From Candidatus Peribacteraceae bacterium (lineage in GTDB: Bacteria > Patescibacteriota > Gracilibacteria > Peribacterales > Peribacteraceae), in contig JAQVMW010000010.1 of the NCBI GenBank assembly GCA_028703445.1, positions 1 through 62,017 of the forward strand: a DNA stretch of 62,017 nt. Reading direction: 5' to 3'. The position numbers were made by a program, and so were the translations under genes. Numbering within the stretch: the stretch's first letter is position 1; every line of letters begins with the position of its first letter. The notes beneath the pieces were generated by a model, which had not been told where the DNA came from, searched no databases, and saw only the letters and a list, made by a program, of their open reading frames with translations. Positions 28,122 through 61,113 of this stretch are shown here, piece after piece.

Positions 28122-28139
28122 GGTGTACATCTATACACC
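28122..28139. promoter_or_regulatory. GGTGTA-N6-TACACC dyad upstream of RM operon
   Basis: A perfect 6-bp inverted repeat with CATCTA spacer, 50 bases before the first ATG of the methyltransferase gene. The same dyad with a different spacer lies at the recA promoter (60007-60024), and a one-mismatch version at 42115-42132. Confidence 0.6.
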
Positions 28140-28156
28140 ACAATATTTCTTTCATG

Positions 28157-28187
28157 TTGCATTAGGAAAAATCCATACACCCTAATG
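28157..28187 (+). promoter_or_regulatory. promoter and second dyad for RM operon
   Basis: TTGCAT (28157-28162), 18-bp spacer, CCTAAT (28181-28186). A perfect 7-bp inverted repeat CATTAGG-N14-CCTAATG (28160-28187) covers both boxes, suggesting autoregulation, for example by the methyltransferase itself. No C-protein gene is present. The inferred mRNA start is close to 28193, which favours the ATG at 28217. Confidence 0.55.
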
Positions 28188-28189
28188 AG

Positions 28190-28999
28190 ATGAAAAACTG
28201 TGCTACATTAAGCTACATGAAATATCCTAGTGATTTTTTGAATAGAATCGTCTGCGGCGATTGCATTGAAGTTATGCAGAAAATTCCTGATAAAAGTGTG
28301 GATCTTGTTGTTACTTCACCACCTTACAATCTCAAAAATTCTACTGGTAATGGAATGAAAGATGGCAGAGGAGGAAAATGGTCAAATGCCGCATTGATTA
28401 ATGGCTACTCTCATCATAACGATGCCATGCCTCATGATAAGTATGTAAAATGGCAGCGAGATTGTCTGACTGAAATGTATAGAGTAATTAGAGATGACGG
28501 AGCCATTTTCTATAATCATAAATGGCGAGTCCAAAATGGATTACTTCAAGACAGACAGGATATTGTCGCCGGATTTCCTGTAAGACAGATCATTATCTGG
28601 AAACGAAAAGGTGGCATTAATTTTAATCCCGGGTATTTCTTACCAACTTATGAAGTAATTTATCTAATTGCAAAATCAGAATTCAAGTTAGCGCCCAAAG
28701 CCAATGCCTATGGAGATGTTTGGGAGTTTACGCAAGAAATGGATAATCCACACCCGGCTGCCTTCCCTCTTTCATTAATTGATCGCATCATTTCCTCTAC
28801 AGAAGCTCGAATTGTCCTCGATCCCTTTATGGGTTCAGGAACAACCGCCGTTGCAGCACAATTTCTCGGGAGAGATTATATCGGAATCGAATTATCACCA
28901 GATTATTGCACTATGGCCGAGGAGCGGCTTGGTCTTGTATCCACTCAAAGAAAACCTTGTGTGTCACTACGAAGGCAGCTTTCTCTCCTTCATGCATAA
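28190..28999 (+). CDS. type II DNA methyltransferase (beta-class, probable N4-cytosine)
   Basis: Modifies the recognition site of the partner endonuclease using SAM. Motif IV TSPPYNL (about residues 44-50 from the first ATG) precedes motif I DPFMGSGTT near the C-terminus, the permuted beta-class order. SPPY with an MvaI/BcnI-type partner fits N4-cytosine methylation of a CC-W/S-GG-like site; this is inferred. Start ATG at 28190 or 28217 (MKYPSDF). It is AT-richer than its neighbours, a sign of transfer, and the endonuclease gene follows after 2 bases. Confidence 0.88.
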   Translation: MKNCATLSYMKYPSDFLNRIVCGDCIEVMQKIPDKSVDLVVTSPPYNLKNSTGNGMKDGRGGKWSNAALINGYSHHNDAMPHDKYVKWQRDCLTEMYRVIRDDGAIFYNHKWRVQNGLLQDRQDIVAGFPVRQIIIWKRKGGINFNPGYFLPTYEVIYLIAKSEFKLAPKANAYGDVWEFTQEMDNPHPAAFPLSLIDRIISSTEARIVLDPFMGSGTTAVAAQFLGRDYIGIELSPDYCTMAEERLGLVSTQRKPCVSLRRQLSLLHA

Positions 29000-29001
29000 C
29001 T

Positions 29002-29787
29002 ATGAAAATATTTACAAAAGAATCTCTTATAAAACAACTCCTTCAAATTACTCAAAAAGGCTGGATTCCCAGCGGACGACATGGAAACAGCGGAGGTATT
29101 GGCAACACATTAGAAGATCTATTGGGAATTACTGAAAATAATCTACCCATTCCAAACGCGGCAGAATGGGAATTGAAAACGCAACGTCTCAACTCTGCTT
29201 CGTTAACCACTTTGTTTCATATTGAGCCGTCTCCAAGGGCTTTAAATTTTGTGCCTGCAATTCTTTTACTGAAGTATGGCTGGGCACATAAAGAGGCAGG
29301 AAAAAAATATCCAAAATCTGAAATGAGCTTTCGGCAGACAATCAATGGACTCTCAAGAAGTGACCGCGGCTTCATGGTAAAAATTGATAGAAATGAGCGT
29401 AAGGTTTTAATTTCTTTTGATGCTACCAAAGCGTCGAAAAAGCACGCAAAATGGTTAAAGTCAGTTCATAAGAAAGTTGGGTTAGGAGAATTAAACCCTC
29501 AACCCTATTGGGGCTTTGATGATTTAAGAAATAAGGCAGGAACAAAATTGCTCAATTCGTTCTATGTTCAGGCAAAGGCAAAGAAAGAAAATGGAAAGGA
29601 GTTCTTTAAATATGAAAAAATCATGATGCTTCAGGGTTTTAATTTTGATGGATTTTTGAAAGCAATTGAACAAACAAAGTTGCTTGTAGATTTTGATGCA
29701 CGCACTGGACACAATCACGGCACTAAGTTTCGACTTCGACAGAATTGTCTTCCGATGCTGTATAAGAAAGTTACAATTATTGCTTAG
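29002..29787 (+). CDS. MvaI/BcnI-family type II restriction endonuclease
   Basis: The N-terminus carries SGRHGNSGGIGNTLEDLLGI and ENNLPIPNAAEWELKTQR, the conserved block of MvaI/BcnI enzymes in which the Glu/Asp and ExK residues (ELK) form the metal-binding active site. LTTLFHIEPSP follows as in the family. These enzymes act as monomers and nick each strand of CCWGG (MvaI) or CCSGG (BcnI). About 262 aa matches their size. AT-rich codon use, shared with the methyltransferase, marks the pair as recently acquired. Confidence 0.85.
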   Translation: MKIFTKESLIKQLLQITQKGWIPSGRHGNSGGIGNTLEDLLGITENNLPIPNAAEWELKTQRLNSASLTTLFHIEPSPRALNFVPAILLLKYGWAHKEAGKKYPKSEMSFRQTINGLSRSDRGFMVKIDRNERKVLISFDATKASKKHAKWLKSVHKKVGLGELNPQPYWGFDDLRNKAGTKLLNSFYVQAKAKKENGKEFFKYEKIMMLQGFNFDGFLKAIEQTKLLVDFDARTGHNHGTKFRLRQNCLPMLYKKVTIIA

Positions 29788-29968: not shown

Positions 29969-30760
29969 ATGCCTCACATCCTCACCGTTTTGCGAGCAAA
30001 GCATGGTTTCACACAGGAGCAACTTGCAGAGGCGATCGGCGTATCGCGTCAGCACCTTGCCAAGGTAGAGCAGGGAGAAGCGGATCTCAAACTGGCACAG
30101 GCGCGTGCGTGCGCGGAGCTCTTTGGCATTTCTGTGGATGCTCTCTCGCTCGGAGAACTCCCTGCTGCCAAAGATGTGGTTCTGAAGAAACCATCCAAAG
30201 AACGGGGAAAGGATGTACCCCAGGAACGCGACCCGCGACCGCAGATCACCGTGAAACCGGAAAATGTAGAGAAGTTCAAAGAAGTCCTTCTCTATGTTTT
30301 GGGCAAAGTCGGGGCATTCCCCAATGTGGGCAAAACCGTGCTCTTCAAATTGCTCTACTTCATCGACTTCGATCACTACGAGAAATACGAAGAGCAGATC
30401 ATCGGGGCTACGTACCAAAAGGAGGCCTACGGTCCTCTTCCGGTGGAATTCGCGGCCATCGTAGGACGCATGATCAAGAATGGAGAATTGCAGGAGATTC
30501 GTGGAAAGTATTTTGACCATGAACAGATTAAATACCTGCCGTTGCGAAAGCCAAACTTAGATGGATTTAATGCAAATGAGACAAAGACCATTGATGAAGT
30601 GCTGAAGAAATACGGCGGAAAGTCAGCAACAGAAATCAGTGACATCGCTCATAGGGATACTCCGTGGAAGGTGCACGATATGCACGAGATCATCGATTAC
30701 GAATCAGTCTTCTTCCGCGATGCGGCTTTTTCCGTCCGCGATGATCATGACGAATTATAG
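29969..30760 (+). CDS. XRE-HTH plus Panacea (DUF4065) antitoxin
   Basis: Residues 1-60 are an XRE/Cro helix-turn-helix (TQEQLAEAIGVSRQHLAKVEQG) that should repress its own promoter. After a charged linker, residues about 105-240 are a Panacea/DUF4065 domain: LFKLLYFIDFDHYEKY, TYQKEAYGPLPVEF and IAHRDTPWK. Panacea domains are known to neutralise many unrelated toxins. The gene overlaps the small downstream gene by 14-20 bases, the classic arrangement of a toxin-antitoxin operon. Confidence 0.88.
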   Translation: MPHILTVLRAKHGFTQEQLAEAIGVSRQHLAKVEQGEADLKLAQARACAELFGISVDALSLGELPAAKDVVLKKPSKERGKDVPQERDPRPQITVKPENVEKFKEVLLYVLGKVGAFPNVGKTVLFKLLYFIDFDHYEKYEEQIIGATYQKEAYGPLPVEFAAIVGRMIKNGELQEIRGKYFDHEQIKYLPLRKPNLDGFNANETKTIDEVLKKYGGKSATEISDIAHRDTPWKVHDMHEIIDYESVFFRDAAFSVRDDHDEL

Positions 30761-42059: not shown

Positions 42060-42132
42060 GAAAGAAAATCGTGGGATCGAACACTGTTTGGGATCGAAAG
42101 GCTTGCATCCAAATGGTGTACGAGTGTACACT
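42060..42132 (+). promoter_or_regulatory. complex regulatory region before small gene 42139
   Basis: GATCCCA near 42054 and TGGGATC at 42073 form an inverted repeat; TGGGATCGAA is then repeated directly at 42089. The promoter is TTGCAT (42103-42108), 18-bp spacer, TACACT (42127-42132). The dyad GGTGTA-CGAGTG-TACACT (42115-42132) overlaps the -10 box. The ATG is 6 nt further on. Confidence 0.6.
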
Positions 42133-42138
42133 GTATCC

Positions 42139-42369
42139 ATGCCTCCCGAGATGCTCAATAGCAGGCCAACCTCCGCACTTTCCACGGTCCGGATCGACTG
42201 TTCAAGATCACCCGAAACGGCACTGACGGGCGTATTGGAGTGGGTTTCCGCATTCCCCAACTGTTCGGATCTGCACATCGTTCTCCCCTCACTGCGCGGT
42301 CAGCCCTCTCATCGGCAAGCTCTCTTGAGCCTGCAGCGACTGGGGTGCCGCGTCACGTCCAAGAACTAA
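42139..42369 (+). CDS. hypothetical protein, 76 aa, under SOS-like dyad
   Basis: MPPEMLNSRPTSAL start at 42139, 6 nt after the -10 box. Soluble, alpha/beta-like, with VLEWVSAFPNCSDLHIVLPSL and ALLSLQRLGCRV. No family recognised. The shared operator with recA makes a DNA-damage-inducible role possible, e.g. a small regulator, but this is inference from the promoter only. Confidence 0.5.
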   Translation: MPPEMLNSRPTSALSTVRIDCSRSPETALTGVLEWVSAFPNCSDLHIVLPSLRGQPSHRQALLSLQRLGCRVTSKN

Positions 42370-58978: not shown

Positions 58979-59806
58979 ATGAAGTCCCTCAATCGCCTCC
59001 TGCTTGCCGGTGCCTGTGCCCTCTTGTTTTCGGCATGCGGAAGCCAAACTCCTACGACCCATGACCTCCCCACTGGCATCCGGACCATGACCGGAACGCT
59101 CTTGCCCGCAGAGATATCTACGTTCCGTCGCGGCACGCATCTGCTTGAAACCAACGGGCAGCGCCTCTGTTTCGTCGAGAGCACGACGATCAACTTGCGC
59201 TCGTTCGAAGGGAAGACCGTGGTCATCCGAGGTGTCTTCGAACCCAATTCCGATCCAACACTCCTCCCCGTTTTAGTCACGCAGGATGTGACCGCAGTGG
59301 AGCAGGATTCTCATCTTCTCTCACTCCCTGCCTTCGGTCTCACCGGAAGCATCCCCCGCTCGTGGATCATCGCAACACAGAAGGATTTCACGGTTCTGCT
59401 GGTGGAGAACACTTCTGTTCCGCTCGTCACAATCACACTCAAGAAGCAGACTCCCCTGCCGACGAGCGGCGCGCCTTTCCTGATCTCGGGCCACCACGCC
59501 ACGCGCGAAGGTGGTTCCGGATCGCAGGAGGAGGCCACTTCCATCGAGCGAGGGGATGATCTGATCGTGATCACCTTCACTCCTCCCAAGGAATCCGAAG
59601 ACTCAGACCTGTTACGTGCGCAGTGGAGCGGATTTCTGACATCCCTCATTTTTACCGAAACGAGCAGTTCACAGGCTTCAAACGCTGCATCCGAGCGGAC
59701 TGCAGGTACGCCCTGCGGCGGCACGGCCGGTATCCTCTGTCCGGCAGGTGAGTACTGCGCCATTACGGACATGAAGGAGAACATCGGACACTGTAAGAAG
59801 ATATGA
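58979..59806 (+). CDS. lipoprotein, 275 aa
   Basis: Signal peptide with lipobox FSAC (residues 1-21), so exported and lipid-anchored. Beta-rich body with VVIRGVFEPNSDPTLLPVLV (OB-like) and a C-terminal Cys-rich stretch CGGTAGILCPAGEYCAI. No family recognised. The start at 58979 is required by the lipobox. The TGA stop is the first word of a GAGTTAT array. Confidence 0.75.
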   Translation: MKSLNRLLLAGACALLFSACGSQTPTTHDLPTGIRTMTGTLLPAEISTFRRGTHLLETNGQRLCFVESTTINLRSFEGKTVVIRGVFEPNSDPTLLPVLVTQDVTAVEQDSHLLSLPAFGLTGSIPRSWIIATQKDFTVLLVENTSVPLVTITLKKQTPLPTSGAPFLISGHHATREGGSGSQEEATSIERGDDLIVITFTPPKESEDSDLLRAQWSGFLTSLIFTETSSSQASNAASERTAGTPCGGTAGILCPAGEYCAITDMKENIGHCKKI

Positions 59807-59935
59807 GTTATGGGATATGAGTTATGAGTTACGAGTTTCGAGCTATGAGTTAAGGGTTTGGATGGATCGTACTCATGACTCACGACTCACGACCCAAGAC
59901 TCTCAACTCAAGACTCGCGACTCTCGGTGTACTAT
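59803..59935. repeat. inverted array of GAGTTAT / ACTCATG words
   Basis: Arm 59803-59855 (ATGAGTTATGGGATATGAG and further units) pairs with arm 59871-59927 (ACTCATGACTCACGACTC and further units). The upstream gene's TGA lies in the first word. The region separates the lipoprotein gene from recA. Confidence 0.75.
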
Positions 59936-59977
59936 CTTACACCATACCAATAATGAGCATTATGCAAGCAAATCTTT

Positions 59978-60006
59978 TTGATCTGCAGAATTCAAGGAGT
60001 TATGTT
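59978..60006 (+). promoter_or_regulatory. recA promoter
   Basis: TTGATC (59978-59983), 17-bp spacer, TATGTT (60001-60006). The inferred mRNA start lies inside the dyad at 60007-60024; the leader to 60052 is about 40 nt. Confidence 0.7.
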
Positions 60007-60024
60007 GGTGTACGAATTTACACC
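60007..60024. promoter_or_regulatory. GGTGTA-N6-TACACC dyad at recA (candidate SOS operator)
   Basis: A perfect 6-bp inverted repeat with CGAATT spacer, immediately after the -10 box. Its position suits a LexA-type repressor. The same dyad occurs at 28122-28139 and, with one mismatch, 42115-42132. No lexA gene is in the window. Confidence 0.65.
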
Positions 60025-60051: not shown

Positions 60052-61113
60052 ATGACGAAAGTAATCACTCCCAAAGTCGATATGATCATCCCGACGAAGG
60101 ACACAGCGCACGCTGCAACCAAGAATCCGAAGGAAGAAGCCCTCAAGGCCGCCCTCGTGCAGATCGAAAAACAGTACGGCGCCGGCGCCATCATGCGCAT
60201 GGGTGACGGACACGCCGTCAAGATCGAGTGCATCCCTTCCGGTGCAATCTCCCTCGACATCGCACTTGGGGGCGGCATCCCCAAAGGCCGCATCATCGAG
60301 ATCTACGGGCCCGAATCCTCGGGCAAGACCACCCTCGCGCTCCACGTGATCGCCCAGGCGCAGAAGCGCCGCGGCAAGGCGGCCTTCATCGATGCGGAAC
60401 ACGCACTGGATGTGCAGTACGCCAAGAAGATCGGTGTGGATATCGATGCACTCTTAGTCTCACAACCGGATGACGGCGAACAGGCACTCGAGATCACCGA
60501 AACACTCGTGCGTTCCGGCGGCATCGACCTCATCGTCGTGGATTCCGTGGCGGCCCTGACGCCGCGCGCGGAAATCGAAGGCATGATGGGCGACAGCCAT
60601 CTGGGTCTGCATGCCCGCTTGATGAGTCAGGCATTGCGTAAACTCACGGCCATCGTCAGTAAAACGAATACCTCCATCATCTTCATCAACCAGATGCGCA
60701 TGAAGATCGGCGTGATGTTCGGCAATCCCGAGACCACCACGGGCGGCAATGCCCTCAAGTTCTACGCTTCCGTCCGCCTGGATGTGCGCCGCATCGATAA
60801 AATTCTGGAGAAAGGCGAAGGCGATCAGGAAATCGTCGGCAACCGCACCCGCGTCAAAGTCGTGAAGAACAAAATCGCCCCGCCCTTCCGGCAGGCCGAA
60901 TTCGACATTCTCTACGCCAAAGGCATCAACCGCGAAGGGGATCTTTTGGATCTCGGCGTGAGGTACGGCATCATCGAGAAATCCGGTACGCACTTCCGCT
61001 ACGGCGAAGATGCCCTCGGACAGGGCCGCGCAGCTGCCTGTCTTATTCTCGCAGAACAACCGAAGCTCATAGAGAAACTGGAAAAGGAAGTCCGGAAGGC
61101 AGCGGAAATTTAA
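60052..61113 (+). CDS. recA: recombinase RecA
   Basis: DNA strand exchange and SOS co-protease. Walker [10 protein letters not shown] at residues 86-94, Walker [11 protein letters not shown], loop L1 [22 protein letters not shown] split by normal spacing, loop L2 [21 protein letters not shown] region and C-terminal domain. 353 aa. The start at 60052 ([10 protein letters not shown]) fits the family; upstream ATGs lie in the repeat array or the operator region. Confidence 0.97.

Follow-up and report, generated by a model that had tools for sequence, protein, structure and literature searches.

Sites and genes in the window

The window (the whole stretch of DNA analyzed, 62,017 nucleotides) comes from a member of Candidatus Peribacteraceae, a family of the phylum Peregrinibacteriota, Patescibacteria, whose members are tiny and uncultured. 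The genome has 1.37 Mb in 23 contigs and is 98.75% complete. The window carries recA, a type II restriction-modification (RM) operon, and a small gene for a 76-aa protein, each preceded by one or two copies of an 18-bp dyad. The features are as follows.

28122-28139: RM operon box, GGTGTACATCTATACACC; perfect dyad, PWM score 19.8
28140-28162, plus strand: module at the RM operon box, ACAATATTT ... TTGCAT
28190-28999, plus strand: methyltransferase gene M (N6_N4_Mtase; PF01555, E 6e-40)
29002-29787, plus strand: restriction endonuclease gene R, MvaI/BcnI family (PF15515, E 2e-65)
42103-42132, plus strand: promoter of the 76-aa gene, with -35 TTGCAT (42103-42108), 18 bp, and -10 TACACT (42127-42132); conserved in relatives
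42115-42132: 76-aa gene box, GGTGTACGAGTGTACACT; one mismatch (last base T), PWM score 21.0
42139-42369, plus strand: 76-aa small gene, conserved, of no known family
59926-59943: recA box 1 (distal), GGTGTACTATCTTACACC; perfect dyad, PWM score 22.6
59944-59970, plus strand: module at recA box 1, an A/T-rich stretch, then TGCAA
59978-60006, plus strand: recA promoter as read from the sequence, with -35 TTGATC (59978-59983), 17 bp, and -10 TATGTT (60001-60006)
60007-60024: recA box 2 (proximal), GGTGTACGAATTTACACC; perfect dyad, PWM score 23.2
60052-61113, plus strand: recA (TIGR02012, 522 bits), ATG at 60052

An earlier note on this DNA had reported the dyad GGTGTA-N6-TACACC at 60007-60024, 28122-28139, and 42115-42132. 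All three coordinates are confirmed, but the window has four sites, the one at 59926-59943 before recA having been overlooked. The dyad itself is real; the description of it as two GGTGTA half-sites around unrelated spacers is slightly off, since position 7 is C in all four window sites and the motif is therefore 7+4+7 rather than 6+6+6. With up to two mismatches to the dyad the window has 6 matches, compared to 0.69 expected from shuffles (maximum of 100 shuffles, 3). The perfect dyad occurs three times in the whole genome, always within the window, where about 0.08 copies would be expected genome-wide if the four bases were equally frequent.

A matrix built from 93 distinct sites gives the refined consensus GGTGnAC-N4-GTnCACC, with GGTGTACGATCGTACACC as its best form. 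Position 5 of the half-site is loosely held (T 57%, G 20%, A 18%), and the supposedly free spacer is partly constrained. The four window sites, two of which belong to the training set, score 19.8 to 23.2 (training median, 20.6); the next-best window site scores 12.2, about the same as the best of the reversed control (12.0). In the whole genome, GGTGKAC-N4-GTMCACC with no or one mismatch is found only at lexA, recA (two sites), comM/yraN (two sites), an intron homing endonuclease gene, the RM operon, and the 76-aa gene, and a further site, upstream of rmuC, scores 19.4. A site at C11:159476 (GGTGTACGGTATTACATC, score 14.2) was set aside because it lies inside an open reading frame, and the pattern at three mismatches (109 matches versus 156 in the control) was dropped, such weak matches carrying no signal.

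The exact motif occurs at 43 sites in 57 genomes of the family, compared to 3 matches of the reversed pattern. A sample of 242 genomes from across the class comprised 44 Peribacteraceae and 198 others; in it, the motif was found in 24 of the family genomes (36 sites; reversed control, 3; 12-fold) and in only two of the others (2 sites; control, 6), which is not above the control. Above the control level, the motif is restricted in this sample to Candidatus Peribacteraceae. Random occurrence genome-wide had been named beforehand as an outcome that would count against a regulatory site; instead, the motif is far above chance in both the genome and the family.

The lexA and recA promoters

The lexA gene of this genome (C17:7525-8127, minus strand) was recognized by the S24 peptidase domain and the LexA DNA-binding domain that it encodes, both of which are intact. 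The sequence has the Ala-Gly site and the Ser/Lys residues of a LexA that cleaves itself. The protein scores 142 bits against TIGR00498 and is 98% identical to the LexA of a Candidatus Peribacter record. The presence of the motif upstream of lexA had also been named beforehand as a test, and it is present as a pair: the lexA promoter reads TGGATACGATCGTACACC-TATGAT-GGTGGACGGTTGTCCCCC, with the boxes 24 bp apart around TATGAT. The layout TTGAC, box, TATnAT, box recurs in 26 of 28 oriented family loci, with the boxes 24 to 25 bp apart and flanking the -10 element.

The recA gene likewise has two boxes, 77 to 84 bp apart, in 29 of 30 family loci. The proximal box of the window begins directly after the -10 element TATGTT and so covers the likely transcription start; this corrects the earlier placement of the dyad on the recA start site, the ATG being at 60052. 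The aligned family loci have TTGAC at the place of the -35 element. Immediately upstream of the distal box, at 59806-59920, there are degenerate repeats (gagttatgagttacgag / gactcacgactcacgac) that are not seen in the recA loci of relatives with which the window was aligned.

Exact family sites are also found at comM/yraN (a divergent pair), priA, ssb/yraN, and rmuC; these targets are repair genes, and we count them for the LexA reading. The product of L117 is RmuC and not RNase Y. Error-prone polymerase genes (dinB, umuDC) are called core to the SOS regulon in PMC8565304; none was seen beside the 43 exact family sites. The expectation that the motif would also mark other damage genes is borne out for lexA; among the genes near exact sites there was no dinB, umuD, uvrA, or ruvAB.

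A LexA with an S24 domain, boxes at both lexA and recA, over-representation, and nearness to gene starts are all features of a LexA regulon. The paired sites at lexA and recA and the non-random occurrence of the motif support the suggestion that the dyad is the LexA box of this lineage, and we regard it as very probably the operator of Peribacteraceae LexA, a candidate whose binding by LexA we infer from the sequences. A LexA dimer on GGTGnAC-N4-GTnCACC would cover promoter elements at lexA, recA, comM/yraN, rmuC, the 76-aa gene, and accessory genes. DNA damage would load RecA onto single strands; LexA, which RecA filaments inactivate, would then cleave itself, and the genes of the regulon would be released; the box-bearing genes would in this way be damage inducible.

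The LexA operator of Gram-positive bacteria (Firmicutes/Actinobacteria) is CGAAC-N4-GTTCG. The Peribacteraceae motif resembles it in being a palindrome with half-sites four bases apart, in overlapping promoters, and in the autoregulation of lexA and recA that it implies. It differs in its half-site, GGTGnAC, in which position 5 is free and the GGTG extension is conserved. It is not simply GAAC-N4-GTTC: the half-sites are spaced alike, but T prevails at position 5, and GAAC is just one of the forms that occur. The LexA operator of Balneolaeota is similarly a lineage-specific motif derived from promoter comparison, but it is a direct repeat, TTACACATATTTTWTACATA, rather than a palindrome (PMC7739468).

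Boxes at methyltransferase genes

Methyltransferase genes of the 57 genomes were listed above Pfam cut-offs, and most of their loci were examined. About 14 of these genes carry a box just upstream, and M is always the gene next to the box. The methyltransferase loci, 252 kb in all, contain 16 distinct boxes, where Markov shuffles predict 0.7 and the reversed control has 3. Box scores at these loci are bimodal, either at least 13 or mostly below 5. The boxed C5 enzymes have the partners LlaMI (L162), EcoRII (L163 and L164), NgoFVII (L165), and Bse634I (L175), and boxes also precede two related C5 genes, L169 and L166, the latter box being weak. Boxed N6/N4 enzymes are those of the window, L197, L132, L123, L124, L092, and L214, and there is a box before one large Mod-like gene (L201).

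In the window, the adjacent methyltransferase and restriction endonuclease genes at 28190-29787 constitute a type II RM system, in which comparison with orthologues places the true start of M perhaps at the ATG at 28217. This island has 38.6% GC against 56% for the window, of which it is the lowest 1.6-kb stretch, and the sister species G028 has no such methyltransferase, so the island seems to have been acquired. In genome G008 the same RM system has the box AGTGTACAATCGTACACC upstream of M, and the same pair in genus g9 (L197) also has a box before M; two orthologues of the M gene (L138 and L139) have none. No small HTH controller gene lies between the box and M or between M and R, and the same box stands at lexA and recA, which is not the arrangement of an operon under C-protein control. 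The suggestion that the RM system is under damage control is strengthened, at the level of sequence, by the recurrence of the box at unrelated RM systems.

The orientation of the endonuclease gene varies. In the window and in the loci of G008, G047, G038, and G053, R is downstream of M in the same direction. In L162 (LlaMI) and L175 (Bse634I) M and the endonuclease gene converge, and the latter has no box within the sequence examined, so that M alone would be controlled; the partner genes in L169 and L166 are probably convergent and box-less as well. It may be that the methyltransferase boxes precede the promoter and do not overlap it, and repression by LexA from such a position is not obvious.

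A further module, ACAAyATTT-N8/9-yGCA, follows on the right-hand side of the distal recA box and likewise at most methyltransferase boxes, including those in L162, L163, L164, L197, L132, and L214. The GCA/TCAA element at +16 to +21 is present at all 28 recA box 1 sites and at 10 of 14 methyltransferase sites, compared to 0 to 4 sites per group elsewhere. The module does not occur at comM, the 76-aa genes, or the accessory genes, and it occurs only rarely at the proximal recA box and the lexA boxes. We considered that it might be a leftward promoter and rejected this, the spacing of 12 to 15 bp being too short. The occurrence of one module at both recA box 1 and the methyltransferases argues that the methyltransferase operators are not random matches. 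At the boxes that have it, LexA would act either alone or with a second factor.

Alternative readings of the boxes

More than one reading of these sites can be considered. A different dimeric regulator, such as an RM C protein or another damage regulator, might own the operator and merely happen to act at recA. The extra module common to recA box 1 and the methyltransferase boxes hints at a second factor, and an HTH/SocA gene (29969-30757) adjoins the RM operon of the window. In addition, searches of the two genomes of genus g3 (G002, which is 97% complete, and G041) did not find LexA or an S24 protein, and yet this genus has perfect boxes at a methyltransferase gene (L123 and L124) and at least one recA box; either lexA is missing from the assemblies through a gap or the boxes are maintained in the absence of LexA (the loci concerned are L103, L123, L124, and L125). 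Against another regulator, the tightest and most conserved double box sits at lexA itself, around the -10 element in 26 of 28 loci, and no C-protein gene is apparent in the box-bearing RM loci examined. In more distant Peregrinibacteria (L191 and L196, whose LexA proteins are 42 to 43% identical), the promoter layout is the same and the operator is GGTGAG-N6-CTCACC, in which the outer arms of the family operator are kept and the inner bases have changed along with the protein. Another owner of the operator is, in our judgment, very improbable. The palindrome in L191 and L196, GGTGAGTGAACGCTCACC, is located between TTGAC and the -10 element some 55 bp upstream of lexA and is likely a step in the evolution of the LexA operator.

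The sites at lexA, recA, and the 76-aa gene could be LexA boxes while those at methyltransferases are look-alikes, or cargo without regulatory effect such as remnants of a conserved insertion site. Many methyltransferases, among them most large Mod-type and phage-like ones, have no box, no other stretch of the window has a GC content as low as that of the RM island, and the module shared by most boxed methyltransferases might mark the edge of a mobile cassette. However, that same module is found at recA, which is not mobile, and the boxes of unrelated RM families, which stand 28 to 104 bp before the start of M, score high and have diverged in their spacers. We consider it improbable that the methyltransferase sites are without function.

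Possible purpose and relation to known systems

If the methyltransferase boxes are LexA operators, a feedback can be envisaged in which a restriction enzyme would cut an under-methylated chromosome, the resulting break would free the methyltransferase promoter from LexA, and the extra methylation would then stop further cutting. Type II endonucleases that cut an unprotected chromosome do induce SOS (PMC11324026, PMC3874152). That self-cutting serves to induce more methylation is our best guess at the purpose, which we put forward tentatively. We would give a similarly guarded hearing to the broader proposal, in which host LexA controls many unrelated type II RM systems and operators of the recA-distal type have been gained by methyltransferase genes to form a host-run safety loop. 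With such a loop, a small genome could acquire restriction systems and retain them.

Phage infection can trigger SOS. The purpose might accordingly be to arm a defense by damage- or infection-induced restriction rather than to feed back on methylation, and the same-direction M-R operons of the window, G008, G047, G038, and G053 would induce both genes. The convergent pairs in L162 and L175, and probably L169 and L166, would instead induce only M, and induced restriction seems to us a rather unlikely purpose.

The feedback reading shares with C-protein control and methyltransferase autorepression (PMC3874152) the aim of balancing M and R, but in Peribacteraceae the candidate controller is a global regulator of the host, its damage repressor, which would act on M. 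The passages searched in PMC3874152 and PMC12707154 do not mention type II RM under LexA control. A literature search found no reports on LexA in Peregrinibacteria or on a LexA box at type II restriction genes; a 2017 study of Patescibacteria was outside that search. Sanchez-Osuna, Barbe and Erill (doi 10.1111/1462-2920.13826) are said to have described in that year the LexA regulon of Patescibacteria, the same superphylum and the same question.

The E. coli gene symE lies within a restriction island. It is LexA controlled (PMC1891008, PMC3874152), as the genes discussed here would be, but its product is a toxin, whereas in Peribacteraceae the target would be a methyltransferase. The new part is the candidate SOS control of type II methyltransferases.

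The motif provides uncultured Patescibacteria with a well-supported candidate SOS operator, and the predicted regulon, made up of repair genes, many RM methyltransferases, a conserved small protein, and an intron homing endonuclease, is unlike the textbook one. Should the methyltransferases indeed be controlled in this way, the sensing of DNA damage would be linked directly to the marking of self and non-self, boxes at DNA-modification genes would tie bacterial immunity to DNA damage, and the survival of a host that has newly acquired a type II RM system would have a general explanation.

The 76-aa gene and accessory genes

The box of the 76-aa gene overlays the -10 element TACACT, which lies inside it. 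The last base of this site does differ from the dyad, as the earlier note had said, but this is not decay: 19 of 20 orthologous loci retain the box, with T as the final base in nearly all, and this conserved T completes the -10 element. The ATG falls at the expected transcript start, and the mRNA is probably leaderless. Relatives of the gene occur in 40 of the 57 family genomes at a loose threshold, and 18 aligned members share D20, W35, L65, G69, C70, and V72. None of the 18 has a convincing Pfam match, and a similarity to STAS domains (E 0.009) was supported by neither Pfam nor the fold search. The predicted structure is a small alpha/beta fold, beta-alpha-beta-alpha-beta, of moderate confidence (pLDDT 76.6), for which Foldseek gave no match at E 0.001 or better; the best Z, 5.0, was to unrelated folds, and no convincing match to a SulA/YneA-type division inhibitor was among the Pfam and fold-search results. 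Our guess is that the protein would be a damage-induced regulator of growth or division, and its family, a new candidate group of small SOS proteins, lends itself to a test for division arrest.

The gene directly after the RM operon, at 29969-30757, encodes HTH and SocA/Panacea domains and is possibly an antitoxin-like element.

Exact sites also precede genes with Bro-N and RhuM-Fic domains and four-helix-bundle genes, the latter fold having been assigned by eye. Several accessory genes have their start codon immediately next to the box, an arrangement suggestive of leaderless mRNAs. Four genes of the Bro-N or RhuM-Fic type (L096, L127, L128, and L119) have a perfect box ending 1 bp before the ATG. 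At C12:6207-6224 (L022) and L094:1501-1518 the box abuts the start of a LAGLIDADG-like ORF in an apparent 23S rRNA intron, an assignment that rests on inspection of the sequence and applies in two genera; this intron homing endonuclease is possibly damage inducible.
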